Shown in pieces: positions 9,578-32,404 of a stretch of DNA of 35,727 nt; position 1 is the stretch's first letter, and every line of letters starts with the position of its first letter. The position numbers and the translations under genes were made by a program. Source of the DNA: Nesterenkonia sp. (GTDB lineage Bacteria > Actinomycetota > Actinomycetes > Actinomycetales > Micrococcaceae); contig NZ_JAJUJJ010000026.1 of assembly GCF_029265375.1 (NCBI RefSeq), forward strand, positions 1 through 35,727, in the 5' to 3' direction. A model generated the notes under the pieces. That model saw only the letters and a list, made by a program, of their open reading frames with translations. It was not told the DNA's origin and did no database searches.

Positions 9578-9709
9578 ATGACGCTGGCACTGCATCAGCT
9601 GAGGCGTCCCCTGCCGGAAGGTGGGCCGCAGCTTAACGCAGGCTTGCGGCTCCACGCTCCCACGCCCGGGATTCCTCGGCTTCCGGGCACCGGCTGCTGC
9701 CAACCTTGA
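9578..9709 (+). CDS. Possible 43-residue small protein or leader peptide
   Basis: ATG 9578 has a near-ideal ribosome binding site (AAGGAG at 9563-9568, nine bases away) and opens a 43-codon frame ending in TGA at 9707-9709. This is 37 bases before the ATP-grasp start. The peptide is rich in L, P, R and G and ends GTGCCQP. It has no membrane helix or signal peptide. It could be a translated leader that couples to the ATP-grasp gene or a real small protein, or a chance frame. The ribosome binding site is the main argument. No family is recognised. Confidence 0.35.
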   Translation: MTLALHQLRRPLPEGGPQLNAGLRLHAPTPGIPRLPGTGCCQP

Positions 9710-9746
9710 GCAGTACGGGCCTACCCCAGGACAAAGGAACTCAGGA

Positions 9747-10915: not shown

Positions 10916-11995
10916 TCAATCCTGCATAGTGCCCATCAAATGGCGCATCAGGGCCCGGTGCGGGTGACGATTGCTGCCATAAGCGGGGTAGCGGAATTCG
11001 GAGATATCGGGAGCAGCAGAGATTCCAATGACCGTGGCCGCCTCGCCGCTGTCAAGGGAGGGCACTATCAGGTCGACTGCTGCCGCCGCGAGGCCTGGGA
11101 TGGCCCACATCGCGTCCACCGCCAGCTCCGCGATCTCGGCGGCTAGGTCGTCTGTGACATCCACACTGATCCGCCCATCAGAGCCGCCCTGCACTGACGA
11201 GGACAAGCGTTGAACTTGCCCGTAAGGCAGCACCTGGCCGGGCTCGATGGACTCGGCGCGCAGAGCATCTTCGTCGATCGCTGGCTGACGTTTGGCCAAA
11301 TAGCTGCACTCCTCGCGTCGGCTCACCTCAGCGTCGGCGAGCTGAAGGACTGTGCGGTCCCCGTCGCCGATGACGTGCAGCGGGATCCTCACCACAGCCG
11401 CGGCGACGCTCTCTCCGACCACCAGCACTCGCACGGGCAGACCCGGCTGTGTGCTGGTGAGAAGAATCTGCTGGGAGCCCTTCGGCTTGGAACCCGCCGC
11501 CTTCTCCTCTCTCTCCCAGGCGCGGTTAAACTCCTCCTCTGACACTATGCCGACGCGGGCGACGAACCCGGGAACCTTGCGCTCTCCAGAGACGATGACC
11601 TCGCCTTCCTGGGCGCGGAAATGCCGCAGGGCCGCCTCGTACTGGTGCGGTGAGAATTTTGCGGTAGGGGGCACCGGCACCCCTGATGCCCGAAGATAGG
11701 TCCGAGTCAGCGTCAGGGACGGAACCACTCGACGCGCCTGGCTGCTGGCCAGAGTGGTGGCCCTGCCGTCGAAGCCGCCGATCACCTCTCCCTTATAAAC
11801 AAGCACGAAGTGGTCCTTGGTGACCTTACGGACCTTCACACCGAGGGAGCGCGCCGCACCGAGAACCAAAGACGAGTGGCTAAAGACATTGCTGCGTATT
11901 CGCAGGTCTTCGGGCGCCAGCCTCTCGCTGATAAAGCGGTCCATGGGAGACGAGCTGCTCTGCTCGGACGAGGCTGCAGTGTCCATGGTCAGCAC
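10916..11995 (-). CDS. ATP-grasp protein related to cyanophycin synthetase, possibly inactive
   Basis: 359 residues from GTG 11995, which has GGGGG eight bases upstream. The fold is recognisable from SLTLTRTYLRASGVPVPP (93-110), PLHVIGDGDRTVLQL near 205, DVTDDLAAEIAELAVDA near 275 and HPHRALMRHL at the end. These match cyanophycin synthetase/GshF-type ATP-grasp domains. Key positions differ. The segment where VVKP is expected reads VIVSGERK, and the usual metal-binding E-x-N near the end reads GISAAP. It may therefore be a degenerate or altered-function member. It lies 93 bases after cysNC on the same strand and faces the TupA-like gene. Confidence 0.7.
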   Translation of the reverse strand: MLTMDTAASSEQSSSSPMDRFISERLAPEDLRIRSNVFSHSSLVLGAARSLGVKVRKVTKDHFVLVYKGEVIGGFDGRATTLASSQARRVVPSLTLTRTYLRASGVPVPPTAKFSPHQYEAALRHFRAQEGEVIVSGERKVPGFVARVGIVSEEEFNRAWEREEKAAGSKPKGSQQILLTSTQPGLPVRVLVVGESVAAAVVRIPLHVIGDGDRTVLQLADAEVSRREECSYLAKRQPAIDEDALRAESIEPGQVLPYGQVQRLSSSVQGGSDGRISVDVTDDLAAEIAELAVDAMWAIPGLAAAAVDLIVPSLDSGEAATVIGISAAPDISEFRYPAYGSNRHPHRALMRHLMGTMQD

Positions 11996-12088
11996 AGTAC
12001 CCCCAATGCAGTTGCCCCTCGTATACCGACCGGCACCCCACTCATGGGCCGCGCTCCTCCACCGGCATGAGGGGGCCCTGACACTGAG

Positions 12089-14008
12089 TCAGCCGATGAT
12101 CTTCTCGACTAGCAGCGCAGTCAGATCCTCCTTAGAACCCGAAGCCGTGTCCACGGTAATCTCCGGTTCCGCAGGGGGCTCGTACGGGGCGGTGATACCG
12201 GTGAAGTCCTTGATCTGACCTTCCCGCGCCTGCTTGTACAAGCCCTTCGGGTCTCGCTGTTCGCACACTTCCAGCGGTGTGTCGACGTACACCTCGACGA
12301 AGTCGCCCTCGTCGAACAGTTCCCGAGCCGCGTCACGGTCTCTGCGGTACGGCGACACAAACGCCGTCAGGACGATGACGCCGGCCTCAGCGAACAGACG
12401 GGCAACTTCAGCCACCCGGCGGATATTCTCGGCACGGTCGGTCTCCGTCATGCCCAGGTCTTTGCAGAGTCCCTGACGCACATTGTCGCCGTCCAGAAGC
12501 ATCGTGTGGTATCCGCGTCGGTGGAGCTCCACCTCCAACGCATTGGCCAACGTGGACTTCCCAGAGCCGGAGAGGCCCGTGAACCAGATGCACCGACCGG
12601 CGTGCCCATTTCGGTCTTCTCGCATGTAACGGGTGACCGCGGTCTTGTGCCAGACCACCTGCGCCTTTGACTCATGCTGGCGGTACTCATAGGGAGAATC
12701 CTGGGAGAGGATCTCCCGGATCATACCCGCACCCACTGTCACGTTGGTCAGACGATCGATGACGATGAAGCTTCCGGTCCCGGGCGAACGACGGTACTTG
12801 TCCACCGGCACATCCCCGGTGAGCTCCACCTGGCAGCGCGCCATCGAGTTCAGTTCGAGCTCATCAGCCTCATGCTTTTCCAGGCTGTTAACGTCAACCT
12901 GGTACTCGATGGACTCCACCGATCCGGAGATCTCACGCGTGGCCATCTTGAAGTCATAGAGCTTCCCCGGCTGAAGGGCGTCCTCATGCATCCACACCAC
13001 GTCAGCCATGAATGAATTCGTCAGAGGAACCTCCGCCTCGCCCTCGACGATCCAGTCCCCGCGAGAGATATCAATTTCGTCATTCAGCGTGACCGTCACA
13101 GCCTGTCCTGGGTAGGCCTCATCAAGGTCACCCTCCCAGGTCACGATGCTCTTCACCGTAGAAGTCTTCCCTGAGGGCAGCGCTTTCACCCGCTGACCTG
13201 GTTTGAGAATTCCAGCGGACAGCGTCCCTGCGTATCCGCGGAAGTCAAGATTGGGACGGTTCACGTACTGCACTGGGAAGCGGAGGTCGTCGAGGTTCTC
13301 GTCCTGAGCCACCGGAACGTTCTCCAGAAGTTCCAGCAGCGCTTCGCCGTTGAACCACGGCGTGTTCGGGCTGCGATTGACGACATTGTCGCCCTCCAGA
13401 GCCGAGATGGGAACAAAGCGGATGTCCTTGGCACTCAGGTTGGTCGCGAACTGATGGTAGTCGGCGACGATCTCTTCAAATCTCTCCTGGGAGAAATTCA
13501 CCAGGTCCATCTTGTTGACAGCGACCACCAGGTGCTCGATACCCAGCAGGTCGGCGATGAAGCTGTGCCGTCTGGTCTGGGTCATCACACCGTGCCGAGC
13601 GTCCACCAGGATCACCGCCAGGGACGCCGTAGAGGCGCCGGTGGCCATGTTTCGGGTGTACTGTTCATGTCCCGGGGTGTCGGCAATGATGAATTTGCGC
13701 TTATTGGTGGAGAAGAAGCGGTAGGCAACGTCAATGGTGATGCCCTGCTCCCGCTCCGACTGCAGACCGTCGACCAGCAGCGCCAGATCCACCCGACCGC
13801 CCTGCGTCCCCGAGGTTTTGGAGGCCGCCGTCACCGCGGCAAGCTGATCCTCATAGATCATCTTCGAATCGTGCAGCAGACGGCCAATCAGGGTGGACTT
13901 GCCGTCGTCGACGGAGCCGCAGGTGATGAACCGGAGCAGATCTTTGTTCTCGTGCTCCTTGAGGTACGCTTCGATATCCTTCTCGATCAGGTCTGACTGA
14001 TGCGACAT
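12089..14008 (-). CDS. cysNC: Bifunctional sulfate adenylyltransferase subunit 1 / adenylylsulfate kinase
   Basis: 639 residues. The N-terminal GTPase (CysN) has P-loop [13 protein letters not shown] (30-42), switch [11 protein letters not shown] near 110 and VNKMDLV near 160. Two beta-barrel domains follow. From about residue 465 comes APS kinase (CysC), with P-loop [14 protein letters not shown], then [11 protein letters not shown], and later [10 protein letters not shown]. With CysD it converts sulfate and ATP to APS, and the kinase then makes PAPS. The fused form is common in actinobacteria. It starts 74 bases after cysD. No APS/PAPS reductase accompanies it, while two sulfotransferase genes lie upstream in the same orientation. 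PAPS for sulfation is therefore the likely product rather than assimilation. Confidence 0.95.
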
Positions 14009-14082
14009 GTGTAGTGATTCCCCTGTGAAGTCCTGTGTAGGTGGGTGGTGAAGGCGGACGGCCTTTCGGCGCAGTTTCCGCT

Positions 14083-15018
14083 TTAGAAATAGCCTTCGCG
14101 TTTCTTCTTCTCCATCGACCCAGCCTGGTCATGGTCGATCGCGCGGCCTGAGCGCTCTGAGGTCGTGGTCAGCAGCATCTCTTGGATGATCTCCGGCAGA
14201 GTGCTGGCTTTCGACTCCACTGCTCCAGTCAGCGGGTAACAGCCCAGGGTGCGGAACCGCACCCATTTCTCAGCGGGCTTCTCGCCCGGCTCCAGCGGCA
14301 GCCGGTCGTCGTCGACCATGATCAGCATCCCGTCGCGCTCCACAACCGGTCGCGGTGCCGAGTAATACAGCGGAACGATCGGGATGCTCTCGAGATAGAT
14401 GTACTGCCAGATATCCAGCTCAGTCCAATTGCTGAGCGGAAACGCGCGAATCGACTCGCCCTTATTGACCTTGGCGTTGTAGACGTTCCACAGTTCCGGG
14501 CGCTGATTCTTCGGGTCCCACCGGTGATATTTGTCGCGGAAGCTGAAGACTCGCTCCTTCGCCCGAGAGGCTTCTTCGTCGCGCCGTGCCCCGCCGAATG
14601 CCGCGTCGAATCCATGGAGACTCAGCGCCTGCTTCAACGCCTGCGTCTTCATCACATCGGTGTACTTGGCACTGCCATGGTCAAACGGATTGACGCCAGC
14701 CTTCACGCCCTCCTGATTTGTGTGAGTGATGAGCTCCATCCCGGCTTCTTTGGCCATCCGGTCGCGGAACTCGATCATCTCCCGGAACTTCCACGTGGTG
14801 TCGATATGCATCAGCGGGAAGGGTGGGGGCCCCGGGTGGAAAGCCTTGCGTGCAAGGTGAAGCATCACCGAGGAATCTTTGCCGATGCTGTAGAGCATCA
14901 CAGGGTTGGAAAACTCTGCCGCCACTTCGCGGATGATGTGGATTGACTCAGCTTCCAGCTGCTTCAGATGAGTCTGACGCTGGGGCGTTATAGGGGTGTC
15001 GGCTGCAATGGCGGTCAT
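14083..15018 (-). CDS. cysD: Sulfate adenylyltransferase subunit 2
   Basis: 311 residues, normal for CysD. It is a PP-loop ATP pyrophosphatase fold with [15 protein letters not shown] (41-55), followed by [11 protein letters not shown]. Later come [20 protein letters not shown] and a C-terminus ending KREGYF, all typical. It forms the catalytic half of ATP sulfurylase with CysN, making APS from ATP and sulfate in the cytoplasm. The ATG at 15018 follows AAGGTAGGGAAA. It sits 10 bases after cysQ and upstream of cysNC, in a tight sulfate-activation unit. Confidence 0.95.
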
Positions 15019-15028
15019 TTTCCCTACC

Positions 15029-15877
15029 TTAGCGTTTTTCTGTTGAACTGCTCAATGCACGGACGAGGGCATTCTCCCAGAGAGGAGCGCGCTGCCCAGC
15101 CACTATGAAGAAGGGGTTCAGGACTGACTCTTTCTGGTTGCAGCGCAACGGCTCTAGGGTGGTGGCCTCGAGCACCACACCGCCGGCTCCGGTGACCACC
15201 GCCTGCGCAGCCGCGGTATCCCACTCTGAGGTCGGCGCCAGCCGCGGGTACAGATCGGCCTGACCTTCTGCAACCAAGCAGAGTTTGATGGAGGATCCCA
15301 TAGACACGCGCTCATGGGCTGGCAGCTGGGCGGCGAAGCGTTCGAACTCTTCCGAACCATGAGATCGCGACCCAACAATCCTCCACGGCTCGCTGCCCGG
15401 GGCTGGAAGCGGGCGAACCGACAGCGGAGTGCGCCCCTGTGCTCCGTCCTGTTCAATCCGCCACGCCCCGCGACCATCCACCCCGATCCATGTGCACCCA
15501 AGCACCGGAGCGTGAACGATGCCGAACACCGGCACGCCGTCCTGCACCAGGGCGACATTGAGCGTGAATTCTCCGTTCTTCTTGATGAACTCCTTGGTGC
15601 CGTCCAGGGGATCGATCAGCCAGTATTGAGACCATGTGCGGCGCTCTTCCCATGGCACTTCGGCTGACTCCTCTGACAGCACCGGCACGCCCGGCGCAAC
15701 CTCGTGCACCAACGCGGTGAGCGCCTGGTGTGCCGAGGTATCGGCCAGGGTCAGTGGAGACGCATCCTCCTTGACGGTGACATCGAAGTCCTGCTCATAG
15801 ATGTCCAACACCCTCTGGCCCGCCTCATGCACGCCATCCAGCAGCCGATTCTGGGCTTCCTGGTCCATCAGTGACAC
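15029..15877 (-). CDS. cysQ: 3'(2'),5'-bisphosphate nucleotidase
   Basis: About 282 residues from GTG 15877, with AGGAG and CAGG just upstream. TTG 15895 and ATG 15868 are alternatives. It is an inositol-monophosphatase superfamily member: a [14 protein letters not shown] block near residue 38, SEES near 68, the metal-binding [15 protein letters not shown] near 86 and [17 protein letters not shown] near the C-terminus. CysQ hydrolyses PAP, the by-product of PAPS-dependent sulfotransferases, to AMP. Its place between the permease and cysD fits a sulfation unit in which PAP must be cleared. It could also act on inositol phosphates, but the neighbourhood favours PAP. Confidence 0.92.
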
Positions 15878-15900
15878 GACGATCCTGCTCCTCAACTCAT

Positions 15901-17667
15901 TCAGAACGGCCAGATCACTGGGACCAGGCCGATGACAACGGTACCCGTCAAGAGACTCATCGGGGTCCCGACCCGCAGATAATCGGTGAACTTGTACCCT
16001 CCGGGGCCGAGCACCATAAGGTTTGTCTGGTATCCCAAGGGGGTCAGGAAGCTGGCTGAGGCAGCAAACATAATGGCGATCACGAACGGCAGAATACTCA
16101 CGTCGAGTTGGTCAGCCACTGCCACCCCGATGGGGAACATCAGCACGGCTGCCCCATTGTTGGTGATCAGCTCGGTGAAGAGGACCGTGACTGCATAAAC
16201 GATCGCCAAGGCGACCCAGGGGGGAAGAGCTTCTGCGAAGAGCAGCCATTCAGCAATCTGCTTGGCTGCGCCGGTCTGAGTCATCGCTGCTCCCAGCGCG
16301 AACGACGCAGCGATCACGATGAGCACGGATAGGTCGATCTCGCGCCGGGCTTTGCCGATCGGCACGCATCTGGTGGCAAACATAGCCAGCGCGGCCACGA
16401 GGCCCGCTTCCAGAATGGAAACCAGTCCTGACGCGCTGAGGGCCACCATCACAGCGAGGATCCCCAGGGCCACAGGGGCCTTCCTAAAGTTCGGGAGCGA
16501 AGCATCGTTCAATGCGCTGACCAGCAGAAAATCCTTACGGTGGCGGTACTGGCCGACGAAATCATCTCCGGCTTCCATCAGCAGTGTGTCGCCAACCTGC
16601 AGCTCAATGTGACCTAGTTTTCCAGTCAGTCGCTCGCCATGCCGCGAGACGGACAGCACGACCGCGTTGTACAGGGACCTGAAGCGAGACTCTCTGATGC
16701 TCTGCCCGAGTCCGGGGAAGTTCGGGCCGATAATGGCTTCAACGATCCGTCGGCGCGAGTGACGAATGTCCAGCTTATGAATGTCACCCTCCGCTGGGGC
16801 CAGACCGTGGACCCTCCGTATTTCGTGGGCGCAATCCGGTGACCCGATGAACACCAATGCGTCGCCCGCATGCAGGGTTGTCTCAGGGGACACCGCCGTC
16901 AGCAGCTCACCGTTGCGCTCAATGTCAGCCAAATACCCGTAGGTGAGACTCCGCAGGCCGGCAGCGGCGATGGTCTTGCCCACGAGTGGTCCGCCGGACT
17001 CAACTATGGCCTCGACCGCGTATTCACGTGCAGACTCAAGCTGCTCCAAGGCTCCCTGACGATCAGGCAGGAGTCGGTCCGCAAAGAAGTACAGATAGAC
17101 CGCACTGACGAGGACCAGCGGGATACCAATCCAGGCCGGGTCAAACATTGAAAGCTGAATATCTTCTTCAGCCTCAAGGAGCCCTACGATCACAAGGTTT
17201 GTGCTGGTGCCGATCAGCGTGCATGTTCCACCGACGATGGATGCGTAGCTCAGCGGAATCATCAATTTGGAGGGGGCGACCTTGAGCCGTGCCGCCCACT
17301 CTTGAACGGCCGGAATGAACATGGCCATCACAGCAGTGTTGTTCATGAACGCACTCAACCCTGCTGTGGGACCCAGCAGCCGCAGCTGCGCCCGTCGTGT
17401 GCCACTCGGCTGGCCCAGCAGCCTGCGCGCAATCCACTGGATCGCCCCGGACTCCTTGAGCCCTGCTGCCACCAGGTACAGCGTGGCGATGGTCAGCACC
17501 CCAGTATTGCCGAATCCCGCCATGGCATCGGCGGGAGAGAGAATGCCCGAGATGATCAGGAACGTCACGGCTGCCACCAGAATGACGTCGGGTGCCAAGC
17601 GCGTCGCAGCCAGAGAAACCAGCACCAGCACAATTGTTGCTAGGGTCAGTATGGCTTCGACGGTCAC
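15901..17667 (-). CDS. SLC13 (DASS) family permease with RCK_C domains, probable sulfate transporter
   Basis: 588 residues. The N-terminal and C-terminal halves each hold about five or six membrane helices with the paired signatures of this family: SAFMNNTAVMAMF and GTSTNLVIVG in the first half, ELITNNGAAVLMFPIG and LTPLGYQTNLMVLG in the second. The central region (about 215-390) is soluble and contains two TrkA-C-like domains (EAIVESGGPLVGKTI, and VGDTLLMEAGDDF). Such proteins import sulfate or dicarboxylates with sodium. Next to cysQ, cysD and cysNC, sulfate is the natural substrate. The start is GTG 17667 with CAGGAG eight bases upstream. It ends 23 bases before cysQ. Confidence 0.9.
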   Translation of the reverse strand: MTVEAILTLATIVLVLVSLAATRLAPDVILVAAVTFLIISGILSPADAMAGFGNTGVLTIATLYLVAAGLKESGAIQWIARRLLGQPSGTRRAQLRLLGPTAGLSAFMNNTAVMAMFIPAVQEWAARLKVAPSKLMIPLSYASIVGGTCTLIGTSTNLVIVGLLEAEEDIQLSMFDPAWIGIPLVLVSAVYLYFFADRLLPDRQGALEQLESAREYAVEAIVESGGPLVGKTIAAAGLRSLTYGYLADIERNGELLTAVSPETTLHAGDALVFIGSPDCAHEIRRVHGLAPAEGDIHKLDIRHSRRRIVEAIIGPNFPGLGQSIRESRFRSLYNAVVLSVSRHGERLTGKLGHIELQVGDTLLMEAGDDFVGQYRHRKDFLLVSALNDASLPNFRKAPVALGILAVMVALSASGLVSILEAGLVAALAMFATRCVPIGKARREIDLSVLIVIAASFALGAAMTQTGAAKQIAEWLLFAEALPPWVALAIVYAVTVLFTELITNNGAAVLMFPIGVAVADQLDVSILPFVIAIMFAASASFLTPLGYQTNLMVLGPGGYKFTDYLRVGTPMSLLTGTVVIGLVPVIWPF

Positions 17668-17714
17668 GAAATGTCTCCTGATTCAAGAATACCTGCGCTG
17701 TTAAGCACACTCAT

Positions 17715-18926
17715 TCACCGAACAAACCGTTCGATTCTTTCCAGATGCTTTCCTGAAACGGGAAGATCGTCAGTAAACCTGCCCTGCAGGTCGGCCACAG
17801 TGAGCGGAGCAGTTAAGCCGTGCCTCACGAATCCGTAAAAGTCTGGAGTCACCTGGTCCATGGGGAAGTACTGGTACACAAGATTACCCTCGGCTACGAG
17901 CTCTACGACGACGCCAGAATTTCCACAGATCGCCACATGCGGCTCGTCCAGGGGCTGATCTCTGAGGGTGAGTCCTGCCCCGCGCAGCTCGTCCCGGTTG
18001 GTCGCCCGCGGATGGGTCTTTACAGAGACACCGTCCACCGCGGGATTGTCCTGCAGCAGCTGACACAGCTCCACCACCTTCTCCGTATCAGATATCCGGC
18101 TCGGATACACCACTACGGGAACGCGGTCCCGCGTCAGCAGAGCCTCGTGCCGGGCACTGATGTCGTCCCAATCCAGGCCGCCGCTGACCCGCGGCACCAC
18201 ACGAACCTCGCCTGCGATCGGCGCAATCGACTCATAGACACGCCGTGAGTGCTCACTGCGCAGTATGGACAGATCGAAGTCAAGCGGCGGGAAGTGCTCA
18301 CTCACCTCAGCATGCTGGAGATAGACGGTCGAGAGTCCCTTCAGCTCCGCCGCCTTGGTGAGCCCCACCGGCACAGGCGAGTGATCATTGGACACGGCAA
18401 AGACTGAGCTTCGGCAGTGCTGCATGAGGTCGAGTCCGGAGAACACGGACTGACTGAACCGAATTACCTGATAGAGCAGCTCCACCTTGACAGCGCTCCT
18501 TGCAGAGAGAAACTGCTCGAATACGATGTCTTGCGCCCTTAAGAATTCGTCGTCTTTGATCCGGAAGCGCTTGACCGGAAAGTCGGCGATGTTAGCGATC
18601 TGGGATGAGTGGCCTTGGTCGGCGAGCATCTCGGCGAAGAAGTCGAACTCGCGGCGGTTGTTCCGGGTTGAACCGTAGGCCAGAGTGTCGCATTTCAGGG
18701 CTGCCGGCGGCGCGATGTACTTGACCCGTCGAGTCTTCCTCATTCGCTCCTTGAAGAACGCAAGCGCCTCCTGGGCGGGCACCAGTCCGCGATCGTCCAA
18801 GGGGAGTTCGGAATAGCTCAGCTCGTCGAGACGCGGCTGAAAGATGTAGGAGTAGTCTTCGCGCGACTCGATGATTTTGGCCACCTTCTCCATGCCGGAC
18901 CGGCTGGCCTGGATCACGTCCTTCAT
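17715..18926 (-). CDS. Putative GT-B-fold glycosyltransferase or polymer transferase
   Basis: 403 residues from ATG 18926, which has GGAGCAGGG upstream and lies one base after the preceding stop. ATG 18953 would add nine residues and overlap that gene. Visible features are SNDHSPVPVGLTKAAELKG (about 180-198), TVYLQHAEVSEHFPPLDFD, VVVYPSRISDTEK, VKTHPRATNR near 302 and CGNSGVVVELVAEGN. The pattern of a first Rossmann-like domain, an H-P motif and a Gly/Ser loop recalls capsule polymerases, polysialyltransferase-like enzymes and CDP-glycerol glycerophosphotransferases. I cannot name the subfamily. No membrane helix is evident. It sits between the rhamnosyltransferase-like gene and the sulfate cassette in the same transcript direction. 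Confidence 0.65.
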   Translation of the reverse strand: MKDVIQASRSGMEKVAKIIESREDYSYIFQPRLDELSYSELPLDDRGLVPAQEALAFFKERMRKTRRVKYIAPPAALKCDTLAYGSTRNNRREFDFFAEMLADQGHSSQIANIADFPVKRFRIKDDEFLRAQDIVFEQFLSARSAVKVELLYQVIRFSQSVFSGLDLMQHCRSSVFAVSNDHSPVPVGLTKAAELKGLSTVYLQHAEVSEHFPPLDFDLSILRSEHSRRVYESIAPIAGEVRVVPRVSGGLDWDDISARHEALLTRDRVPVVVYPSRISDTEKVVELCQLLQDNPAVDGVSVKTHPRATNRDELRGAGLTLRDQPLDEPHVAICGNSGVVVELVAEGNLVYQYFPMDQVTPDFYGFVRHGLTAPLTVADLQGRFTDDLPVSGKHLERIERFVR

Positions 18927-18927
18927 C

Positions 18928-20235: not shown

Positions 20236-20366
20236 TCAATATCTCCCGACAACTCGCCGCATTGCAGCCCAACACACGAACATGATCCACTCTACAAGCC
20301 CACTCACCGCTCAGAACTCAGTGGACACTCGGAACTGAACGTCTCTGGTTATCCGCACGCCCCGGT

Positions 20367-21743
20367 TCAATTCTCCGTGGGATCGTCCTCCACCGCTGCA
20401 ATCAGTGCAGAGTGCTGTTTCCGGAACTGTTCGGAGTATTCCTCATACAGAGTCTGGTCGACGCTATTAGCCTCCCGCAGGCGCGACTCGAGATCAGGCG
20501 ACAGGCCCGACTTAGGCTGTCCAGAACGGCCGCGATGCACCAGCCGGCGGGTAATCGGAAGACCCACTGCCGCTGCTCCAGCCAGGTGACTGGCCGCAAG
20601 GTGATCCATAGTACCCACCACGTGGAAACGCTCATCCAAGGTTTCCCGGCACATGGACAGCAGACGATCCTCTGAAAGATCGGCTGTGGCTTCAAGCCAG
20701 TACATGTCCTCCTCGGCGTCAATCGACCGGAACATGCCCGGCTGGGAGAATCGCCGCTTGTACGCGTCGGTGAACTCAGGGTGGGTGACTACGATCTGGC
20801 GAGCCAGCATGTTCGTCATACCGCTGTCGATCGTGTACTGCGCGTGCTCCTCAAATGTCTTCGAGTGGTCCTTCGTGGGAACAATGCCCTGCGTGCTGAG
20901 CCGCTTGTAATACCCAGATGACAGTTGCGAAACGGGATCGCGGAGGACCGTGAAGTACGTGAGCTTGCGGCCCGGCAAGTCCAGGGAGAATGCGTGGTGC
21001 TGATGGATCAGTCTTCGATGCGCCAGCTCCTCCTCTGAGAGCCGGAGGAGGGACTCTATTTGGAATAGACCGTGGCGCCTGCTGATTTCAGCCATTGCGG
21101 ACCAGGGAACTGTCTGTTTCAGCGACACGATGGTGCTGGTCCCACCGGTGAAAGGCAGGTGGTAGAAGACCGGCAGCGTCTCAGGTCTGTGGCCAGACAC
21201 CAGCCGGGCGAACTCGCGGCCGACGGCGGTTTCGTCCCACGCGGCGACCAGGTCCTCTCTTAGAACCTGCGCGTCTTCACGCAGCTTGGCGAGCATCTCG
21301 GCGGCGCCCTCCTGGTCGCCGAGCATGAGGCGGGCGGACACCAGAGAAATCAGCGCCCAGGGGGGTGGCCCCGCCTCACCTATCCGGTGGGGCAGCGTGA
21401 CTGCGTCCTCGTAGCGCCCAGCTCCGGCCATCATCACGGGCAGCCAGGCACGGGCACGCCGGTCGTCAAAGTGGGCCGCGAGGATGGAAACGGCCGCAAG
21501 GGCTGTACCGTTCCAGTCGCGACGGCGCCTCTTGACCGCCAGAGAGCGCAGCTCACGCAGGAGCGAGGGGTCTGGGGCGCGGCGCCCGGCCGCATCGGTC
21601 ACCACCTGGTTCAGGAGCCATACGAGGCGATCGTGCTCAGAACGACGGTCACTTGGAGCCTGCAGCGATTTATAGGCGAACCGCTCCCCCGCTGCGCGTC
21701 CCGCCGCGTACCCGTCAGTCCAGTCGTTCACCTCACCAGCCAT
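20367..21743 (-). CDS. Sulfotransferase with helical N-terminal domain
   Basis: 458 residues. Residues 35-180 are helical and TPR-like. The catalytic part begins VFYHLPFTGGTSTIVSLK (192-209), matching the 5'-phosphosulfate-binding loop of carbohydrate sulfotransferases. YFTVLRDPVSQLSSGYYKR (263-281) matches the 3'-phosphate-binding R-D-P...S-x-Y block. LIHQHHAF lies between them, where a catalytic base would be expected. The arrangement is closest to the heparan-sulfate 2-O-type (Sulfotransfer_2) group. It should move sulfate from PAPS to a sugar hydroxyl. It starts with a GGAAGG site 69 bases after the second sulfotransferase. PAPS would be supplied by cysD/cysNC downstream. Confidence 0.82.
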   Translation of the reverse strand: MAGEVNDWTDGYAAGRAAGERFAYKSLQAPSDRRSEHDRLVWLLNQVVTDAAGRRAPDPSLLRELRSLAVKRRRRDWNGTALAAVSILAAHFDDRRARAWLPVMMAGAGRYEDAVTLPHRIGEAGPPPWALISLVSARLMLGDQEGAAEMLAKLREDAQVLREDLVAAWDETAVGREFARLVSGHRPETLPVFYHLPFTGGTSTIVSLKQTVPWSAMAEISRRHGLFQIESLLRLSEEELAHRRLIHQHHAFSLDLPGRKLTYFTVLRDPVSQLSSGYYKRLSTQGIVPTKDHSKTFEEHAQYTIDSGMTNMLARQIVVTHPEFTDAYKRRFSQPGMFRSIDAEEDMYWLEATADLSEDRLLSMCRETLDERFHVVGTMDHLAASHLAGAAAVGLPITRRLVHRGRSGQPKSGLSPDLESRLREANSVDQTLYEEYSEQFRKQHSALIAAVEDDPTEN

Positions 21744-21812
21744 TCAGCACACCTTCCAGAATATGACGCATTGAACTGCAGTCCCCCTCAGACATTGGCA
21801 ATCTTCCCGCCT

Positions 21813-22697
21813 CTACTCGATAAGAACACCAGGCCACTTGGCTCGAATCGCTTCGACGTGGCTCTGGTACTTCTCCTCCAGGTACTTCTGCTCGCTCTCG
21901 CTCCAGGGCCTGAATCCGGCGAACTCGTCTCCGCGGGGAAATCGCTCCTCAACGAGCTCAACGGCACGCGATGCCTTTCGAGACCCCGAGACTTCGTCGA
22001 TGATGTGCAATGTCTCAACCGCGACACCGGACATACCTTCGCGCCTCTCCTGAACTTCGGGAAGTGACGCTTCATCGATGCGCCCTCCGGTGAGCAGATC
22101 GATCATTCGAGGAAGGTCTGAGCCGATGCGCTCTAGCCGGAAGACACGGACACAGTCTTCTCCGAACGATTCCACAATCCGGCGAATGGGCCGCAGCCAC
22201 AGCTCATCGTCCTCGAGGATTCGGTGCCGAAAGTCGTCGAAGCGGGTGAACTCTCCATGGCGGAGTGACTCTACGTAGCACGACGCCAAGAACCCCGGAT
22301 AGCTGCGAATCGTGAATGCCACAGCGCTGGGTCTCTCCCCCAGCAGATCACGTAAGGCCTTCAATCGTCGGTCACAGTGAAGGTAAACGCGCCCTGATCG
22401 GACAATTCGGTTACAGTCACCCATCAGGTTTTCGTCAGAGAGGATCACCTTCCCGGATGGGGACTGCTTGTACTCCCCAAGGACTGTCTCCAGCTGCTCC
22501 GTGGTCGGCACTGCCCCGCGCAGCTTTCTGCCCGCGAGCCACGCGTCGAAGGGTGAAGAGAATCGGCGCCGCAGCGTTCCCATCGTGACGTAGTTGATGT
22601 TCTGCTCAGCCAGCAGGTCGTTGCCCAATGCTAACCTGCGCTGCAACCACGTGGTCGCGGTCTTGTGCGCCCCAAGATGGAGTGCGACGTCAGCCAT
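21813..22697 (-). CDS. Sulfotransferase family protein
   Basis: 294 residues. The N-terminus LHLGAHKTATTWLQRRLAL (6-24) is the PAPS 5'-phosphosulfate loop (H-K-T-x-T-T). VAFTIRSYPGFLASCYVESL (126-145) fits the 3'-phosphate-binding R...S block. SDENLMG near 87 lies where catalytic acid residues are found in such proteins. There is no signal peptide, so it acts in the cytoplasm. It overlaps the end of the polysialyltransferase-like gene by eight bases (ATGGCTGA), which indicates translational coupling to that enzyme and suggests that both work on the same polymer. It differs from the first sulfotransferase in size and motif style, so it probably modifies a different position or sugar. Confidence 0.8.
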   Translation of the reverse strand: MADVALHLGAHKTATTWLQRRLALGNDLLAEQNINYVTMGTLRRRFSSPFDAWLAGRKLRGAVPTTEQLETVLGEYKQSPSGKVILSDENLMGDCNRIVRSGRVYLHCDRRLKALRDLLGERPSAVAFTIRSYPGFLASCYVESLRHGEFTRFDDFRHRILEDDELWLRPIRRIVESFGEDCVRVFRLERIGSDLPRMIDLLTGGRIDEASLPEVQERREGMSGVAVETLHIIDEVSGSRKASRAVELVEERFPRGDEFAGFRPWSESEQKYLEEKYQSHVEAIRAKWPGVLIE

Positions 22698-24123
22698 TCG
22701 CTACCTGCTTCTCACCTGTCGCCGGATCGTTCGCCGCCCCGTCAATGACAGTTGCATCCTTCGCGACACCATCGTTGGCAGCTGCATCCTTCCCGGCCCC
22801 ATCGCTGGCAGCCGTGTCGGTTTCGAGCACGGGAAGTCCCAGTGACTTCAGGCGCGAAGTGGTGAAGTACGGTTTGATCTTCTTGAAGATCTCCTCTGAC
22901 GCCTCGAGGTCGTCTCTCAAGTGGGACACCACTTCAGGCTGCATCGTGTAGGCCACGGCGTGGAGCAGTTTCTCGACCTTCTCCGGGTGACGCACGGCAA
23001 ATGGCTGGTTCTTCCACGGCCCGGCGTGCCTACCGGCCGCGGTAGCCTCGTCGAGTCTCGCATCGGGCAGGACTTTGTGAATCAGCGCCAATGGAACTCG
23101 ATTGCTGTTCTGGTACGGCGAAAGACTCCTGAGGACCGGGTAGGTGCCGTACCGCCATGCGGGAATCTGGTAGTAGGTGGCCGCAGTGATCAACCCTGTG
23201 GAGAAGCAGCCGTAGACCGCAGAGACTCGACACAGCGTATACAAGGTTTCGGCCGTGACCGGTCCAGTCACTTCGTCGAAGTTCACCCCCAGTGACTCTG
23301 CTTCTGCGCGCAGAACCTCGCCCTGAAGGTGGGGAGCCGCGGGGTGAGGCTTGAACACAATATGGGTATGACCGTGAGCGACCGCCGCCTTCAGCATTGT
23401 CAGATATAGGTCGGCTTCCTCTTCGGGCGTGGTGATCCGCAGCGCAGACAGGTACTGGCCCAGGATGAGCGCGACCGGTTTGTGCTTGAAGGGGTCGATC
23501 ACTTCGCCGGCGCGCTCCTGCTCCTGACGAGCCACCGCATCGAACCCATCGGTGATGAGATTCGGAGGCACCGGAGTCGTGGCCACACCGAATTCACTGT
23601 GAAGAAGGGGGCGGATCCCCGGAAGGAGGTCCGAGTAGATCAGACGCTGGATTCGAGTTCCAAGCTGCAGCGGCAGCTTGTCGCGCGTCGGCCCATAGGC
23701 CATCAGGCCGTCAGACATGACGTCGATGGGGGCGTTGTGGAAGATGCGGGCCAGCGCCAAGGACTGCTTGGCCTGCATGGTCTCCAGAATCAGTCGGATA
23801 CTTGCGGAGCCCAGACCCCACTTTTCACGCGCGTACCGCTCCCACAGTGGGGCGTCTTCCTCGCGCGGCACCCAGTGAGACGGGTGGTGAGGACGGATAA
23901 AATCGTTGTAGTCCTCGACACTGTCGAAGTAATGGGCGACGCTGGAAAAGGCCGGAGTCTCCATCAACTTCGGCTTCAGCTCAGGGGTCATTGCCGTACT
24001 GACACAGAGCAGAACACGACGATTCTCGGAAGCACTCCCGAAAAGTCCCGATTCGATTCCTGCCCGAATAAGAACGAGCTCTGAAATGCTGGCCGGGGCG
24101 AATATCTGAACTCTTTTCTGCAT
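22690..24123 (-). CDS. Polysialyltransferase-like protein (PF07388/GT38-like)
   Basis: 477 residues. The three short motifs reported for bacterial polysialyltransferases are visible in order. They are an acidic-acidic-Gly type SDGLMAYGP at 137-145, the H-P motif in FKPHPAAPH (257-265), and a Ser/Thr-Gly loop in GCFSTGLITAATYY (305-318). LILGQYLSALR at 219-229 is also typical. These GT-B-like enzymes polymerise sialic acid from CMP-sialic acid. With two CMP-NulO synthetases in the window, a NulO polymerase is the natural guess. Residues 437-466 are three 10-residue Ala/Asp/Gly/Lys repeats forming a disordered tail. It starts at ATG 24123, overlapping the upstream stop (TAATG), and ends inside the next gene. 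Confidence 0.75.
   Translation of the reverse strand: MQKRVQIFAPASISELVLIRAGIESGLFGSASENRRVLLCVSTAMTPELKPKLMETPAFSSVAHYFDSVEDYNDFIRPHHPSHWVPREEDAPLWERYAREKWGLGSASIRLILETMQAKQSLALARIFHNAPIDVMSDGLMAYGPTRDKLPLQLGTRIQRLIYSDLLPGIRPLLHSEFGVATTPVPPNLITDGFDAVARQEQERAGEVIDPFKHKPVALILGQYLSALRITTPEEEADLYLTMLKAAVAHGHTHIVFKPHPAAPHLQGEVLRAEAESLGVNFDEVTGPVTAETLYTLCRVSAVYGCFSTGLITAATYYQIPAWRYGTYPVLRSLSPYQNSNRVPLALIHKVLPDARLDEATAAGRHAGPWKNQPFAVRHPEKVEKLLHAVAYTMQPEVVSHLRDDLEASEEIFKKIKPYFTTSRLKSLGLPVLETDTAASDGAGKDAAANDGVAKDATVIDGAANDPATGEKQVANG
22726..22815 (-). repeat. Three tandem 30-base repeats in the polysialyltransferase-like gene
   Basis: Three imperfect 30-base units (22726-22755, 22756-22785, 22786-22815) share the frame atc-ttc-c--c-cc-tc--tg-cag on the plus strand. 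They encode 10-residue units ending in Asp on the minus strand. Being a multiple of three, copy number can vary without breaking the frame. Confidence 0.7.
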
Positions 24124-25199
24124 TATTTCACGACTCCCATTGTGTTCAGAATTCGCCTCGCTCGCTTGTCGTCGAAGTCCCTGAGAGATTCCAGCAGTCT
24201 GCCAGACGGCAGCTTGTAGAGCCCTTCACGGCACAGCTCCGGCAGCTTAGCGGCCAACTCTGGCGTGTAACGGCTCGTGGTGTTGAGATGATGCACCATG
24301 ATCACTAAATAGTTGCGAATTGCTTTTGGGACGTACTTGTCGGGATCAGACGATGCCATGGCATCCTCTACCCCCTGGCGCATGGCACGGACAAAATCAA
24401 ACTGTCGTTCGTCGCCCACCATGGACAACGACCCTTGAAGTCCTCTTCGATAGAAATATCCAGGATGAGGAATCACTGCGAACCTGTCGCTCATCAGGTG
24501 GAGCCTCATCATCCATGACCGGTCTTCACATGTCTGCAGGTTGGGCATGAAGTAGAGCAGGCCGTTGTCAATGAGTTTTGCATCGAAAATGCCCGCCCAG
24601 GCATACGTGTAGTCGACGGCGGTTCTGTCATCGAACGGATGCAGGCCCTCCCGTGAGTCGAAGGGCTCCCACGCCGGACCGAACGGGACGCGGATGATGT
24701 GTCTCTTGTGTCCCTCGAACTTCACGTGGTCAGTTCGCACAAAATCGACGCCTAGGGTTTTGATGGCGTCGAGAAGCACAGCATAAAAGTCTGACGCCAC
24801 ATAGTCATCTGGATCCAAGAAGGCGATATAGCGGCCGCGTGCCTGGTCCAGTCCGGTGTTGCGGGCCTCCGCCAAGCCCCGGTTTACCGAGTGGGTCACC
24901 ACACGGCTGTTGGGCAGAGACGGCGCAAGCTCGTCGAGCAGCTGCGCGGTCATGTCTGTGGAGGCGTCGTTGATGAAGATGAACTCGTACTTCTCTAGCC
25001 CCTCCAGAGCGCGCAGACTCCGCATGGTGTCGGGCAGGTATTCCGCGGTGTTGAAGCAGGGGATCACGAGCGACAGTTCAATCCCGGAACGCGCACGCTC
25101 CTCCGCCGAGACCGGACGGGCTTCGTGGACTGTGTCGAAGAATTCGACCCGCAGCACTGACCCATCGTCAGCCCACACACCTATGTCCCCCACATTCAT
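24123..25199 (-). CDS. GT2 family glycosyltransferase
   Basis: 358 residues from ATG 25199, which has GAGGAAGGA directly upstream. GTG 25238, with GCAGGTGGG upstream, would add 13 residues and cannot be excluded. The GT-A domain starts ELSLVIPCFNTAEYLPDT near residue 40, followed by FIFINDASTD, then VNRGLAEARNTGLDQARG and the metal-binding FLDPDDYVAS near 127. CEDRSWMMRL near 225 is the usual E-D region after the acceptor loop. It is the first gene of the long minus-strand series and is translationally coupled to the polysialyltransferase-like gene through TAATG. It may prime the chain or add a side branch. Donor unknown. Confidence 0.88.
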   Translation of the reverse strand: MNVGDIGVWADDGSVLRVEFFDTVHEARPVSAEERARSGIELSLVIPCFNTAEYLPDTMRSLRALEGLEKYEFIFINDASTDMTAQLLDELAPSLPNSRVVTHSVNRGLAEARNTGLDQARGRYIAFLDPDDYVASDFYAVLLDAIKTLGVDFVRTDHVKFEGHKRHIIRVPFGPAWEPFDSREGLHPFDDRTAVDYTYAWAGIFDAKLIDNGLLYFMPNLQTCEDRSWMMRLHLMSDRFAVIPHPGYFYRRGLQGSLSMVGDERQFDFVRAMRQGVEDAMASSDPDKYVPKAIRNYLVIMVHHLNTTSRYTPELAAKLPELCREGLYKLPSGRLLESLRDFDDKRARRILNTMGVVK

Positions 25200-25238
25200 T
25201 CCTTCCTCTGTAAGCGTCCGGGCGAAGTCCCCCCACAC

Positions 25239-25452
25239 TCTAACCCACCTGCTCCGCTCCGCAGCGCTTGAGACGGCGCTGCTCCCCGTCCCCTTCCAAC
25301 TCCCCTGGTCAGCGGCTTAGAACTGCATCAGCATGTGGCGAATAGCCGACTGCGCCCGGTCCGAAGAAGTCCCGGCGGCTGCCGGCTGAGCTAACGTACT
25401 AGTAGTAACCGCTGCACCAGCGCTGCCACAGCCGTTTCGAATGGAGTTCTGC
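25239..25452. promoter_or_regulatory. Divergent promoter region
   Basis: About 214 bases between the long minus-strand series and the plus-strand NulO synthesis pair. Both units need promoters here. An AT-richer stretch (taacgtactagtagtaacc around 25391-25410) stands out against its surroundings and may hold a -10 element, but I cannot pair it with a good -35. Confidence 0.4.
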
Positions 25453-26685
25453 ATGCCTACCTCGCTCGCCATTATTCCGGCCCGCGGAGGATCCGTCGGC
25501 GTTCCCCGGAAGAACGTACGCCGGATTCAGGGGAGGTCACTCACTCACCGGGCGGTGCGTGCAGCCCAGAGGGCCGGGGTCACGCGGGTCGCAGTCAGCA
25601 CCGACGACGAAGACGTCGCAGCTGAGGCGCTGGCCGCCGGAGCCGACGTGGTACGCCGGCCAGACAGTCTCTCCGGAGGCACAGCTACATCTGAGTCAGC
25701 TCTGCTGCATACCTTGGACGTTTACGCCGGTGCACCGGGAGTCGAACATGAGGACAGCCCCGTCCAGCTCGCCGAGGAACCGGGCCAGGGACCCGGCTTC
25801 ATGCCCGACGTCGTAGTGTTCATCCAAGCGACGTCCCCCTTCATTGATCCGGCGAGCATCAGGACTGCAGTTTCTCGAGTGGCATCACAGGAAGTGGATG
25901 TCGCGTTCGCTGCCAAGGAGTCTCATGCCTTTCAGTGGCGGGAGCCCACACCTGGTCAGCTGGTCCCGATCGGCCACGAGGTGGGCCACAGACCGCGCCG
26001 TCAGGATCTCCCCCCGCAGTACCAGGAAACCGGGGCCTTCTACGTGATGAATGCTCGAGGCTTTCAGGAGGCCCGGCACCGCTTCTTCGGACGGATCGCC
26101 GTGCAGGAGGTGGACGCCGACACCGCCATCGAGATCGACACCTGGGAAGACCTCCGCATGTGTGAGGCCATAGCGCCGCTGCTGGACGACAAACTGGGAC
26201 TGACTGCCGATCTGGATCTGGATGTGGATGCACTCGTCACAGACTTCGATGGCGTCCATACCGACGACCGGGCCTCGGTGCATCAAGATGGCACCGAATC
26301 CGTGCGTGTCTCCCGTGCCGACGGCCTTGGCCTCTCCCGCCTGCGAAAGACAGGCATGCCGATCCTGATCCTCTCCAAAGAGCAGAACCCAGTGGTGAGA
26401 GCTCGCGCCGCGAAGCTGCAGGTCGACGTCCTGCACGGTGTTGATGACAAGGCAGGAGCTATCAGGCATTGGATCAGAGAGAATGATCTCGACGCCGCAC
26501 GAGTTGCCTACGTCGGCAATGACATCAACGACATTCCCGCACTTCAGGAAGTAGGGTGGCCGATCGCGGTGGCTGATGCCAAAAATGAAGTGAAGCTTGC
26601 CGCTCGCTTAATATTGGCCCAACGCGGCGGGGACGGCGCCGTGCGCGAGGTGTGTGACCGTATACTAGCGGCGCGGCAACAGTAA
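25453..26685 (+). CDS. Fused CMP-nonulosonate synthetase and KdsC-like HAD phosphatase
   Basis: 410 residues from ATG 25453, with GGAG ten bases upstream; ATG 25441 lacks a site. Residues 1-245 are a cytidylyltransferase: IIPARGGSVGVPRKN, then VSTDDEDV, then FIQATSPF, then QETGAFYVMN and EIDTWEDL. From about 255 a HAD phosphatase of the KdsC type follows, with ALVTDFDGVHTDD (D-x-D), LILSKEQ, and YVGNDINDIPAL as motif IV. Such fusions make the acid from its 9-phosphate and then activate it. The combination implies that the upstream synthase makes a phosphorylated sugar acid, such as KDN-9-phosphate or Neu5Ac-9-phosphate. About 25 extra residues (95-118, acidic and Pro/Gly-rich) interrupt the cytidylyltransferase domain. 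The synthase gene follows 38 bases later. Confidence 0.88.
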   Translation: MPTSLAIIPARGGSVGVPRKNVRRIQGRSLTHRAVRAAQRAGVTRVAVSTDDEDVAAEALAAGADVVRRPDSLSGGTATSESALLHTLDVYAGAPGVEHEDSPVQLAEEPGQGPGFMPDVVVFIQATSPFIDPASIRTAVSRVASQEVDVAFAAKESHAFQWREPTPGQLVPIGHEVGHRPRRQDLPPQYQETGAFYVMNARGFQEARHRFFGRIAVQEVDADTAIEIDTWEDLRMCEAIAPLLDDKLGLTADLDLDVDALVTDFDGVHTDDRASVHQDGTESVRVSRADGLGLSRLRKTGMPILILSKEQNPVVRARAAKLQVDVLHGVDDKAGAIRHWIRENDLDAARVAYVGNDINDIPALQEVGWPIAVADAKNEVKLAARLILAQRGGDGAVREVCDRILAARQQ

Positions 26686-26702
26686 CAGGCGTTTGACGCC
26701 TG
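26686..26702 (+). promoter_or_regulatory. Hairpin between the fused synthetase and the NulO synthase
   Basis: Perfect 6-base stem (CAGGCG, TTTGA loop, CGCCTG) starting one base after the TAA and ending 22 bases before the next GTG. There is no T tract, so it may modulate read-through or mRNA stability rather than terminate. Confidence 0.4.
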
Positions 26703-26723
26703 ACCCACCCGAAAGGACCTCTC

Positions 26724-27599
26724 GTGACCACAGCAATTCAGACGATGACTATCGGTAATCGCACCATCGGCCCCGGCCACCCCACCTACGTCATCGGCGA
26801 GATTGGGCTCAATCACAACGGCAGCGTCGAAACCGCCAAGAAGCTCATGGACGTTGCCAAGGAGGCAGGCGCCGACGCCGTCAAGTTCCAGAAGCGCAAC
26901 CCCGAGGTCTCCACCCCCGCAGCAATGCGCGATAAGCGCCGCGAGACTCCCTGGGGCGAGATGAGCTATCTGGAGTACCGGTACAAAGTTGAATTTGAGC
27001 GGCCCCAGTACGAAGAAATCGCAAAGTACGCTGAAGAGCTCGAACTGGACTGGTTTGCCTCGCCCTGGGATGTGGATTCGGTCAAGTTCCTCGAAGATAT
27101 GGGCGCGGTCACCCATAAAGTCGCTTCAGCCAGCCTGTACAACGACGACATCCTCAAGGCTCTGGCAGAAACCGGCAAGCCGATCATCGCATCGACCGGG
27201 ATGTCCAACATCGAAGACGTGGACCATGCAGTCGAGATTCTGGGTACAGACAATCTGGCTCTGCTCCACACTTCGTCCACTTACCCCATGCCTGCTGAGG
27301 AAGCTAACCTGAAGGTCATTCCGATGCTTGCTGAGCGCTACGGCGTTCCCGTGGGCTGGTCCGGTCACGAGCCCGGACTGCAGATTTCGGTTGCGGCAGT
27401 GGCCTTGGGCGCTGCGATTGTGGAACGGCACATTACCCTGGACCGCACCATGTGGGGCTCCGATCAGGCCGCATCAGTCGAGCCTCAGGGCTTCACCCAC
27501 CTTGTTCGCGACATTCGTGTCATCGAGAAGGCCCTGGGCACACCCGAGAAGAGGGTCCAGGAGGGCGAGAAGGCGAAGATCGCAAGCCTTCGCGGCTGA
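26724..27599 (+). CDS. neuB: NeuB-family nonulosonic acid synthase, short form
   Basis: 291 residues from GTG 26724 (AAAGGA seven bases upstream). It is a PEP-condensing TIM barrel with VIGEIGLNHNGSVETAKKL (20-38), GADAVKFQKRNPE, WFASPWDVDSVKFLEDMG, IIASTGMSN, LLHTSSTYP, WSGHEPGLQ and IVERHITLDR. It ends soon after the barrel and lacks the C-terminal antifreeze-like (SAF) domain of typical 340-350-residue NeuB proteins. It condenses PEP with a mannose-derived sugar or sugar phosphate. With the fused phosphatase just upstream, a 9-phosphate product is likely, and KDN-9-phosphate would fit the nearby manA. That substrate choice is inference. Confidence 0.88.
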   Translation: MTTAIQTMTIGNRTIGPGHPTYVIGEIGLNHNGSVETAKKLMDVAKEAGADAVKFQKRNPEVSTPAAMRDKRRETPWGEMSYLEYRYKVEFERPQYEEIAKYAEELELDWFASPWDVDSVKFLEDMGAVTHKVASASLYNDDILKALAETGKPIIASTGMSNIEDVDHAVEILGTDNLALLHTSSTYPMPAEEANLKVIPMLAERYGVPVGWSGHEPGLQISVAAVALGAAIVERHITLDRTMWGSDQAASVEPQGFTHLVRDIRVIEKALGTPEKRVQEGEKAKIASLRG

Positions 27600-32183: not shown

Positions 32184-32404
32184 GGAAATGCTAGTCTCTC
32201 TCCGTCATGGCCGGCGGCACCTCACGCTCTTCCATCACGCTTTTCATCGTGAGGCTCTACGGATTCTACATGGGGCGCGATTGACACCTGCCGCCACTCA
32301 GAGACCACTGGTCCTCCCGGCCGCTAGAACTCGCCGGCCGACCCGCTTCCTTAGAGAGTCTTCAGCGGCTTGTTCCGGCAAATAAATGCGGTAGCGTGTG
32401 GCTT
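32184..32404. promoter_or_regulatory. Divergent promoter region upstream of manA and the large glycosyltransferase
   Basis: About 220 bases between oppositely directed genes. On the minus strand a TAGAAT hexamer (plus 32263-32268) could be a -10 for the glycosyltransferase, and the context GTAGAATCC recurs upstream of the gene at 33730-35301. On the plus strand TTGACA at 32281-32286 is a consensus -35, but no good -10 lies at the right distance. The assignments are weak. Confidence 0.35.

Follow-up and report, generated by a model that had tools for sequence, protein, structure and literature searches.

Genes for a nonulosonic acid (NulO) polymer and genes for sulfation lie side by side in a stretch of DNA from Nesterenkonia sp., which raises the question of whether they make one product. 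This stretch (the window) is an entire contig of 35,727 bases (G000:C18) from a 2.72-Mb assembly of 58 contigs that is 100% complete. An initial annotation had placed in it NulO synthases and activating enzymes, a polysialyltransferase-like polymerase, two sulfotransferases, and a set of genes for sulfate import and synthesis of 3'-phosphoadenosine 5'-phosphosulfate (PAPS). All of these were confirmed together, coordinates included, although the two sulfotransferase-like genes fall below the Pfam cutoffs. Our reading, to which we assign a probability of about 0.72, is that the window is a locus for a sulfated surface glycopolymer containing 2-keto-3-deoxy-D-glycero-D-galacto-nononic acid (Kdn), that is, a sulfated teichulosonic acid.

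A putative NulO transferase gene adjoins candidate sulfotransferase genes

As seen from the gene calls, a minus-strand run extends from position 25238 to 10916 in the order gt2b, polyST, ST2, ST1, rhamnoT, gtx, dass, cysQ, cysD, cysNC, and atpgrasp, with gaps of -1, -8, 69, 131, -26, 47, 5, 10, 74, and 93 bases. The single strand and close spacing of these 11 genes are consistent with one operon, of which gt2b (24123..25238, minus strand), encoding a GT2 glycosyltransferase (PF00535, E = 5.4e-31), would be the first gene. Since promoter-like and terminator-like sites were near shuffle levels (1 versus 3.7 and 14 versus 11.4, respectively), the limits of this putative operon are set by spacing only. 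The gt2b gene overlaps polyST (22690..24123, minus strand) by 1 base, polyST overlaps ST2 (21813..22697, minus strand) by 8 bases, and ST1 (20367..21743, minus strand) follows. From the overlap it had been concluded that one product is both polymerized and sulfated; the 8 bases are there, but an overlap alone suggests only co-translation, and the argument for one chain is stronger from the recurrence of the gt2b-polyST-ST2 order in another genus, described below.

The polyST product belongs to the alpha-2,8-polysialyltransferase family (PF07388, E = 3.8e-21, 76.4 bits against a cutoff of 23.3), which is present in the window genome alone among 30 Nesterenkonia genomes. In an alignment of 64 sequences, 85% or more retain the positions D138-G139, K258-P-H-P261, and S308-T309, and a PDB sequence search returned nothing. 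The product is a putative NulO transferase and possibly builds the chain. The family assignment of the initial annotation thus stands, whereas its term "polymerase" is the family's name, and the teichulosonic acids in the literature consulted are heteropolymers.

ST2 was considered PAPS sulfotransferase-like based on its loop motifs, a weak fold match, and its neighborhoods. Residues L6, H7, G9, K12, and T13 of the LHLGAHKTATT loop, together with R131 and S139, are invariant in five aligned sequences, and relatives at 18 to 24% identity retain the LH.G..KT loop, R131, and S139; we take the loop and R131/S139 to be the PAPS 5'-loop and the 3'-phosphate motif. The best PDB fold match to the ST2 model (mean pLDDT of 70) was 3rnl, a bacterial sulfotransferase (E = 1.2e-4, TM-score of 0.40), and heparan and tyrosyl sulfotransferases appeared farther down the list among other P-loop and unrelated proteins. 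Members of the ST2 family also occur in Kdn loci of other genera. Moreover, ST2 relatives lie directly beside the dass-cysQ-cysD-cysNC cassette in Halomonas heilongjiangensis and H. salipaludis, 2 of the 41 non-Nesterenkonia loci among the 44 of 80 dass loci that were gene-called.

ST1 is sulfotransferase-like and has an extended N-terminal part. Within the order, 2 of 396 genomes, the host and G108, gave a match for it, and the G108 homologue (45 to 46% identity) retains HLPFxGGTS and YFTVLRDPVSQ. In G108, the homologue stands beside gt2b-polyST, with the PAPS genes approximately 10 to 17 kb off and NeuB, a NeuA-phosphatase, manA, and a second polyST approximately 28 to 34 kb from ST1, gt2b, and polyST.

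Sulfation genes accompany polyST loci of two other genera

PF07388 was detected in 67 of the 396 genomes of the order, and one neighborhood was taken from each of the 66 others; some genomes had two PF07388 places, and one stretch was counted per genome (60 kb in G108, 40 kb in G042, and otherwise up to 20 kb). Five loci not found again by the polyST profile built here (L233, L235, L236, L237, and L244) were kept. The 66 loci carry NeuB (58), NeuA (53), a Kdn-phosphate phosphatase domain (53), gt2b (63), a PAPS-loop sulfotransferase (16), and APS (adenosine 5'-phosphosulfate) kinase (12), and all 12 APS kinases fall within the 16 sulfotransferase loci (Fisher P = 3.7e-10, with genomes within a genus not independent). 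Loop-less copies of the ST2 family (G042 and L214-L218) were not counted as sulfotransferases. By genus, the sulfotransferase is present in 7/7 loci of g14 (family f8), 9/12 of g15 (family f9), and, by the profiles used, 0/47 elsewhere. A search for the same neighborhood in other actinobacteria, which had been proposed from the window, therefore succeeded, and the pairing of a sulfation unit with a NulO-polymer gene set is supported.

The flanks were then widened for 12 of the 16 sulfotransferase loci; G042 and G108 had longer stretches from the start, and G062, G372, and the other 50 loci stayed as taken. With these flanks, 10 of the 16 held a complete cysQ-cysD-cysN set plus cysC, while in G062, G372, and G346 the PAPS set is truncated where the stretch or contig ends. 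In seven of the 12 g15 loci, gt2b, polyST, and an ST2-family gene lie on one strand in the order of the window, the polyST stop falling 45 to 116 bases before the sulfotransferase domain. A fusion of polyST with the sulfotransferase was rejected, as none was present among the open frames and the genes are separate. The transporter beside the PAPS genes is TauE-type in G244 and G108, and G042 has an ABC ATPase, a permease match below the cutoff, and a polysaccharide pyruvyltransferase. Because the PAPS gene order is kept in five Nesterenkonia genomes and the NulO-polyST module is found repeatedly in the order, the association of these genes does not appear to be due to chance.

Adjoining the intact ST2-family gene, the g14 loci L182 and L214-L218 have another copy that lacks the PAPS loop; in six of the seven g14 loci this pair adjoins neuA-kdnP, with the loop-less copy nearest. 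The loop-less protein is possibly a noncatalytic partner.

One sulfated chain or two products

The rival explanation that survives best is that the locus makes two products, a NulO polymer from neuB, neuA, and polyST and a separate sulfated glycan or glycolipid from ST1/ST2 and the PAPS cassette, which we regard as possible but unlikely. Surface loci are mosaics in which neighbors need not share a product, and in the 13 Nesterenkonia surface loci examined the common genes are arranged differently and the gene content between them is variable. In addition, the window holds many glycosyltransferases, the cassette is found near several kinds of polysaccharide-type genes in Halomonadaceae, and in two relatives, G024 and G008, it stands apart from the polymer genes. 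Opposed to this are the polyST-ST2 overlap and the repetition of the gt2b-polyST-ST2 order in seven loci of another genus, the ST1 homologue next to gt2b-polyST in G108, and the recurrence of sulfotransferase and PAPS sets with the NulO-polyST module on a different PAPS lineage. A sulfated Kdn heteropolymer is, furthermore, already known.

Several results nevertheless weigh against a single sulfated, Kdn-containing chain from this locus. By family models, the sulfotransferase calls are weak: ST2 has no Pfam match, ST1 matched only the Gal-3-O-sulfotransferase family below the cutoff (E = 0.048), and profile comparison of both with Sulfotransfer_2-type neighbors gave no match. PDB sequence searches with ST1 and ST2 returned only chance-level matches. 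The ST2 fold match is weak, with low TM-scores, and the ST1 structure model is unusable (pLDDT of 38.8). In the host genome, the sulfotransferases considered were those of the ST1 and ST2 families, and, as the profiles had been built from sequences of the window and of the loci described above, the 50 negative loci could contain families that escaped them. Outside Nesterenkonia, sulfation-bearing polyST loci are confined to two genera, and no PAPS genes were found in the sulfotransferase loci of G165 and G220 (extended on one side) or of G390 (which meets a contig end). The gtx and rhamnoT genes had no match in the 66 other polyST loci of the order, and no exporter was found among the 24 window proteins scanned. 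Finally, the cassette of G024 is situated among unrelated genes, away from polymer genes, and that of G008 is likewise outside the polymer genes, separated by approximately 5 kb from glycosyltransferase genes and by 19 kb from neuB1. In both genomes, a different locus encodes CysH and sulfite reductase, so the cassette there may also feed assimilation.

Kdn as the probable nonulosonic acid

A NulO synthase and a cytidine monophosphate (CMP)-NulO synthetase are jointly present in the window. Divergent from the minus-strand run are neuA2-kdnP (25441..26685, plus strand), encoding a CMP-NulO synthetase (PF02348, E = 1.5e-20) fused to a KdsC/Kdn-9-phosphate phosphatase-like HAD domain, and neuB2 (26724..27599, plus strand), encoding a NulO synthase (NeuB, E = 1.7e-78). 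The top PDB match of the HAD domain was 3mmz, a putative HAD hydrolase (1e-47), followed by KdsC-type entries, and the nearest relatives of neuB2, at 66 to 67% identity, stand in other Micrococcales polyST loci. Farther along are manA (32396..33655, plus strand), encoding mannose-6-phosphate isomerase (TIGR00218, above cutoff) and also present in 7/7 polyST loci of g14, and a second NeuB gene, neuB1 (33730..35301, minus strand; NeuB, E = 1e-38). No Epimerase_2 match (the NeuC/WecB-type epimerase family) was obtained in the host genome, which disfavors N-acetylneuraminic acid and, together with the ManA encoded in the locus, fits Kdn.

That the NulO is instead a sialic, legionaminic, or pseudaminic acid is improbable. 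The best-scoring model for NeuB2 is one for N-acetylneuraminate synthase, although the score does not reach the cutoff, neuA2-kdnP obtains 99 bits with the Kdn-phosphatase model NF058599 against a cutoff of 180, and Billgrantia pairs the same cassette with pseudaminic acid-type genes. These points are countered by the missing Epimerase_2 family, by the NulO-phosphate phosphatase-like domain and manA in the locus, and by the teichulosonic acid of Streptomyces, which contains Kdn according to the portion of the literature consulted.

The locus is larger than the span from 10916 to 27599 initially assigned to it, as manA, neuB1, and neuA1 (4438..5157, minus strand; CMP-NulO synthetase-like, PF02348, E = 2.4e-11) lie outside. 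NeuB was found in 19 of the 30 Nesterenkonia genomes. The neuB1 product, which has an N-terminal extra domain of approximately 230 residues, is matched over nearly its full length in NeuB loci of other Nesterenkonia (pieces in G017), and neuA1 is 63 to 65% identical in the NulO loci of G001, G002, G023, and G026. The G023 locus resembles the window in running from neuB1 to gt2tpr, gt2a, neuA1, and a GT29-like gene, with additional genes interspersed. Two adjacent proteins at the other end of the window, the first (644-2323) weakly GT29-sialyltransferase-like (E = 0.018) and the second (2327-4312) with TPR matches, also have relatives in other Nesterenkonia NulO loci.

PAPS has no visible reductive outlet in the host

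The PAPS cassette lies on the minus strand and consists of dass (15901..17667), cysQ (15029..15895), cysD (14083..15018), and cysNC (12089..14008). The first encodes an SLC13/DASS-type anion, probably sulfate, transporter (CitMHS, E = 9e-74; 106 bits with the dass model against a cutoff of 198.6). The others encode a 3'-phosphoadenosine 5'-phosphate (PAP) phosphatase (TIGR01331, 285 bits, cutoff 228.8), the small subunit of ATP sulfurylase (TIGR02039, 525 bits), and the large subunit fused to APS kinase (PRK05506, 981 bits, cutoff 715). CysQ degrades the PAP left by sulfotransferases, whereas CysD, CysN, and CysC are textbook assimilation genes.

Reductive use of PAPS, considered from the outset as a separate role for these genes, was therefore looked for genome-wide. 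The whole host genome has no match for a PAPS/APS reductase (CysH) or a sulfite reductase (NIR_SIR), and the cassette CysD is the sole match of PF01507 (PAPS_reduct) in this complete genome, which leaves no visible sign of PAPS being used reductively. CysH and sulfite reductase were also absent from the 16 sulfotransferase loci and the window, while both positive controls were detected.

A strong APS kinase match was obtained in five of the 30 Nesterenkonia genomes, each with dass-cysQ-cysD-cysNC in that order, and dass is 77 to 86% identical in the four others. Two of these, G029 and G010, lack any PF01507 match besides the cassette CysD and any sulfite reductase-type match; the single NIR_SIR match of G010 is weaker (1e-24) and lies in a long frame whose type recurs in many relatives. 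The G010 cassette, which starts at a distance of approximately 12 kb from neuB1, adjoins a gene of the Sulfotransfer_1 family (above cutoff) in a glycosyltransferase locus, and that of G029, which has no NeuB, is located beside an ST2-like gene within a glycosyltransferase locus. Conversely, G002, G003, G004, G009, G012, G013, G017, G020, and G022 have neighboring CysH-like and CysD-like PF01507 genes and NIR_SIR with no strong APS kinase match, and the assimilation loci examined in G013, G003, and G012 carry a different CysD. This distribution indicates that two sulfur routes exist in the genus, with the window in the sulfation one. In G008, no CysD or CysN was seen at the SIR-CysH locus (L267, among assimilation loci L266-L269), so both routes there may draw on the sulfation cassette.

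That the cys genes of the host serve assimilation, from PAPS to sulfite and sulfide, with the sulfotransferases as unrelated neighbors, was rejected for the lack of a CysH or sulfite reductase match and is highly improbable, in spite of the textbook role of CysD, CysN, and CysC and the possible supply of the G008 SIR-CysH locus, given that neither enzyme appears in the 16 loci or the window and that G013, G003, and G012 hold another CysD in genomes with no strong APS kinase match.

The PAPS genes are shared with Halomonadaceae

The window CysD is 85 to 90% identical to the Halomonadaceae CysD proteins compared and approximately 47 to 53% identical to those of the g14 and g15 loci. In a CysD tree (midpoint root, quick method), the Nesterenkonia cassette falls among Halomonadaceae (support of 92, not starred), far from the assimilatory Nesterenkonia and g14/g15 CysD proteins. 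A single origin of the PAPS genes of all polyST loci was rejected by this tree. In the dass tree, Nesterenkonia is placed beside a group of Halomonadaceae and Arthrobacter. Since the PAPS lineage differs between the window and g14/g15, sulfation probably joined the Kdn/polyST module at least twice, with at least two PAPS lineages, one of them shared with Halomonadaceae; transfer between Halomonadaceae and Nesterenkonia may have gone either way.

The dass-cysQ-cysD-cysNC order is present in 17 fetched Halomonadaceae loci, some with intervening genes, and one more locus is rearranged; in 4 of the 17 (L060, L087, L090, and L092), the best match spans the CysN part only. In two Billgrantia loci (L066 and L070) and one of Halomonas (L068), the cassette is followed by pseudaminic acid-type genes, so a NulO-sulfation neighborhood is not unique to the window. 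In the fetched stretches of Arthrobacter castelli (L078) and Arthrobacter sp. H14 (L085), a 67% identical transporter occurs with no cys genes.

A proposed pathway and the remaining genes

The proposed pathway would begin with ManA supplying mannose-6-phosphate, which NeuB2 would condense with phosphoenolpyruvate to Kdn-9-phosphate; the fused HAD/CMP-synthetase protein would dephosphorylate and activate it to CMP-Kdn. The chain would be built by gt2b and polyST, possibly together with rhamnoT and gtx, although the substrates of all these transferases are assumed from their families. Sulfate would enter through the SLC13-type transporter, CysD and CysNC would produce PAPS, ST2 and ST1 would sulfate the chain, presumably destined for the wall, and CysQ would clear PAP. 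The PAPS cassette, of Halomonadaceae type, occupies the variable middle portion of a NulO locus of the genus. A bolder and doubtful version is that ST2 and/or ST1 sulfate Kdn directly on a chain made by polyST, giving a bacterial sulfated poly-nonulosonic acid that arose when an actinobacterium with no visible reductive sulfate route acquired, within its NulO locus, the PAPS cassette that it has in common with Halomonadaceae. As PAPS would go to sulfation alone in such a genome, removal of these genes should be clean to interpret.

The remaining genes of the minus-strand run are rhamnoT (18928..20235), which is glycosyltransferase-like (PF11316, E = 8.1e-21), gtx (17715..18953), which overlaps rhamnoT by 26 bases, and atpgrasp (10916..11995), a cyanophycin synthetase-like ATP-grasp ligase with NCBIfam scores far below cutoff. 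No family was assigned to gtx, with no significant Pfam or NCBIfam match and only chance-level matches in a PDB sequence search. Relatives of rhamnoT were found in the NulO loci of Nesterenkonia G001 and G013 (31% and 37% identity), of gtx in G001 (39%), and of atpgrasp in 9 of the 13 Nesterenkonia surface loci. A TupA-like ATP-grasp gene (9621-10853) adjoins atpgrasp, and an amide-forming modification of the polymer by the two predicted proteins is possible.

Comparison with known systems

The SCO4873-SCO4882 genes of Streptomyces coelicolor presumably include a polysialyltransferase gene. S. coelicolor makes a Kdn-galactose teichulosonic acid (PMC7831098), for which these genes, PhoP targets raised by salt, are described (PMC13011467). 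Like the window, they form a gene set for a Kdn-containing wall polymer, phosphate-free in S. coelicolor, but the parts of these sources consulted mention no sulfation, and the likeness is one of description only.

Other systems share single aspects with the window. Halomonas maura is listed, in the excerpt consulted, among halophilic exopolysaccharide producers with some sulfated polymers (PMC4189415); the Halomonadaceae cassette has the genes and order of the window, but the window polyST had no match in the fetched Halomonadaceae loci. The vertebrate proteins WSCD1/2, described in the consulted part of the source as sialate O-sulfotransferases (PMC9304399), sulfate a nonulosonic acid, but on vertebrate glycoconjugates, and are likened by function only. 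The extracellular polymeric substances of granular sludge combine NulOs, including Kdn, and sulfated glycans in a bacterial matrix, with few sulfotransferase matches (PMC10483923), but these are mixed communities with no gene cluster in the sections consulted.

The closest known product is that of Promicromonospora citrea 665T, a Kdn teichulosonic acid with glucose-3-sulfate and 7,9-pyruvylated Kdn (PMC6801904), which, as far as the consulted part of that report goes, is of the predicted class, a Kdn-containing sulfated wall polymer of an actinobacterium. There, the sulfate sits on glucose beside pyruvylated Kdn, so the wording of the initial annotation, a sulfated nonulosonic acid, may be too narrow, as sulfate need not be on the NulO. 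A search confined to 24 proteins of the window found no pyruvyltransferase (PS_pyruv_trans); the G042 locus has one. With a Kdn set, polyST, sulfotransferases, a PAPS set, and a pyruvyltransferase, G042 would have what a P. citrea-type structure needs. The open-access literature searched yielded no paper on a set of genes for making a sulfated teichulosonic acid, in line with the gene-set part of what had been claimed for the window, but the product class was already known chemically.

Overall, the P. citrea polymer is known from chemistry and the window from genes alone, in which PAPS supply and candidate sulfotransferases are linked to Kdn genes. The candidate sulfotransferase families, several of which Pfam failed to detect or gave low scores, may act on nonulosonic acid polymers, and concrete genes can now be proposed for sulfated teichulosonic acid, a wall polymer class found only as chemistry.

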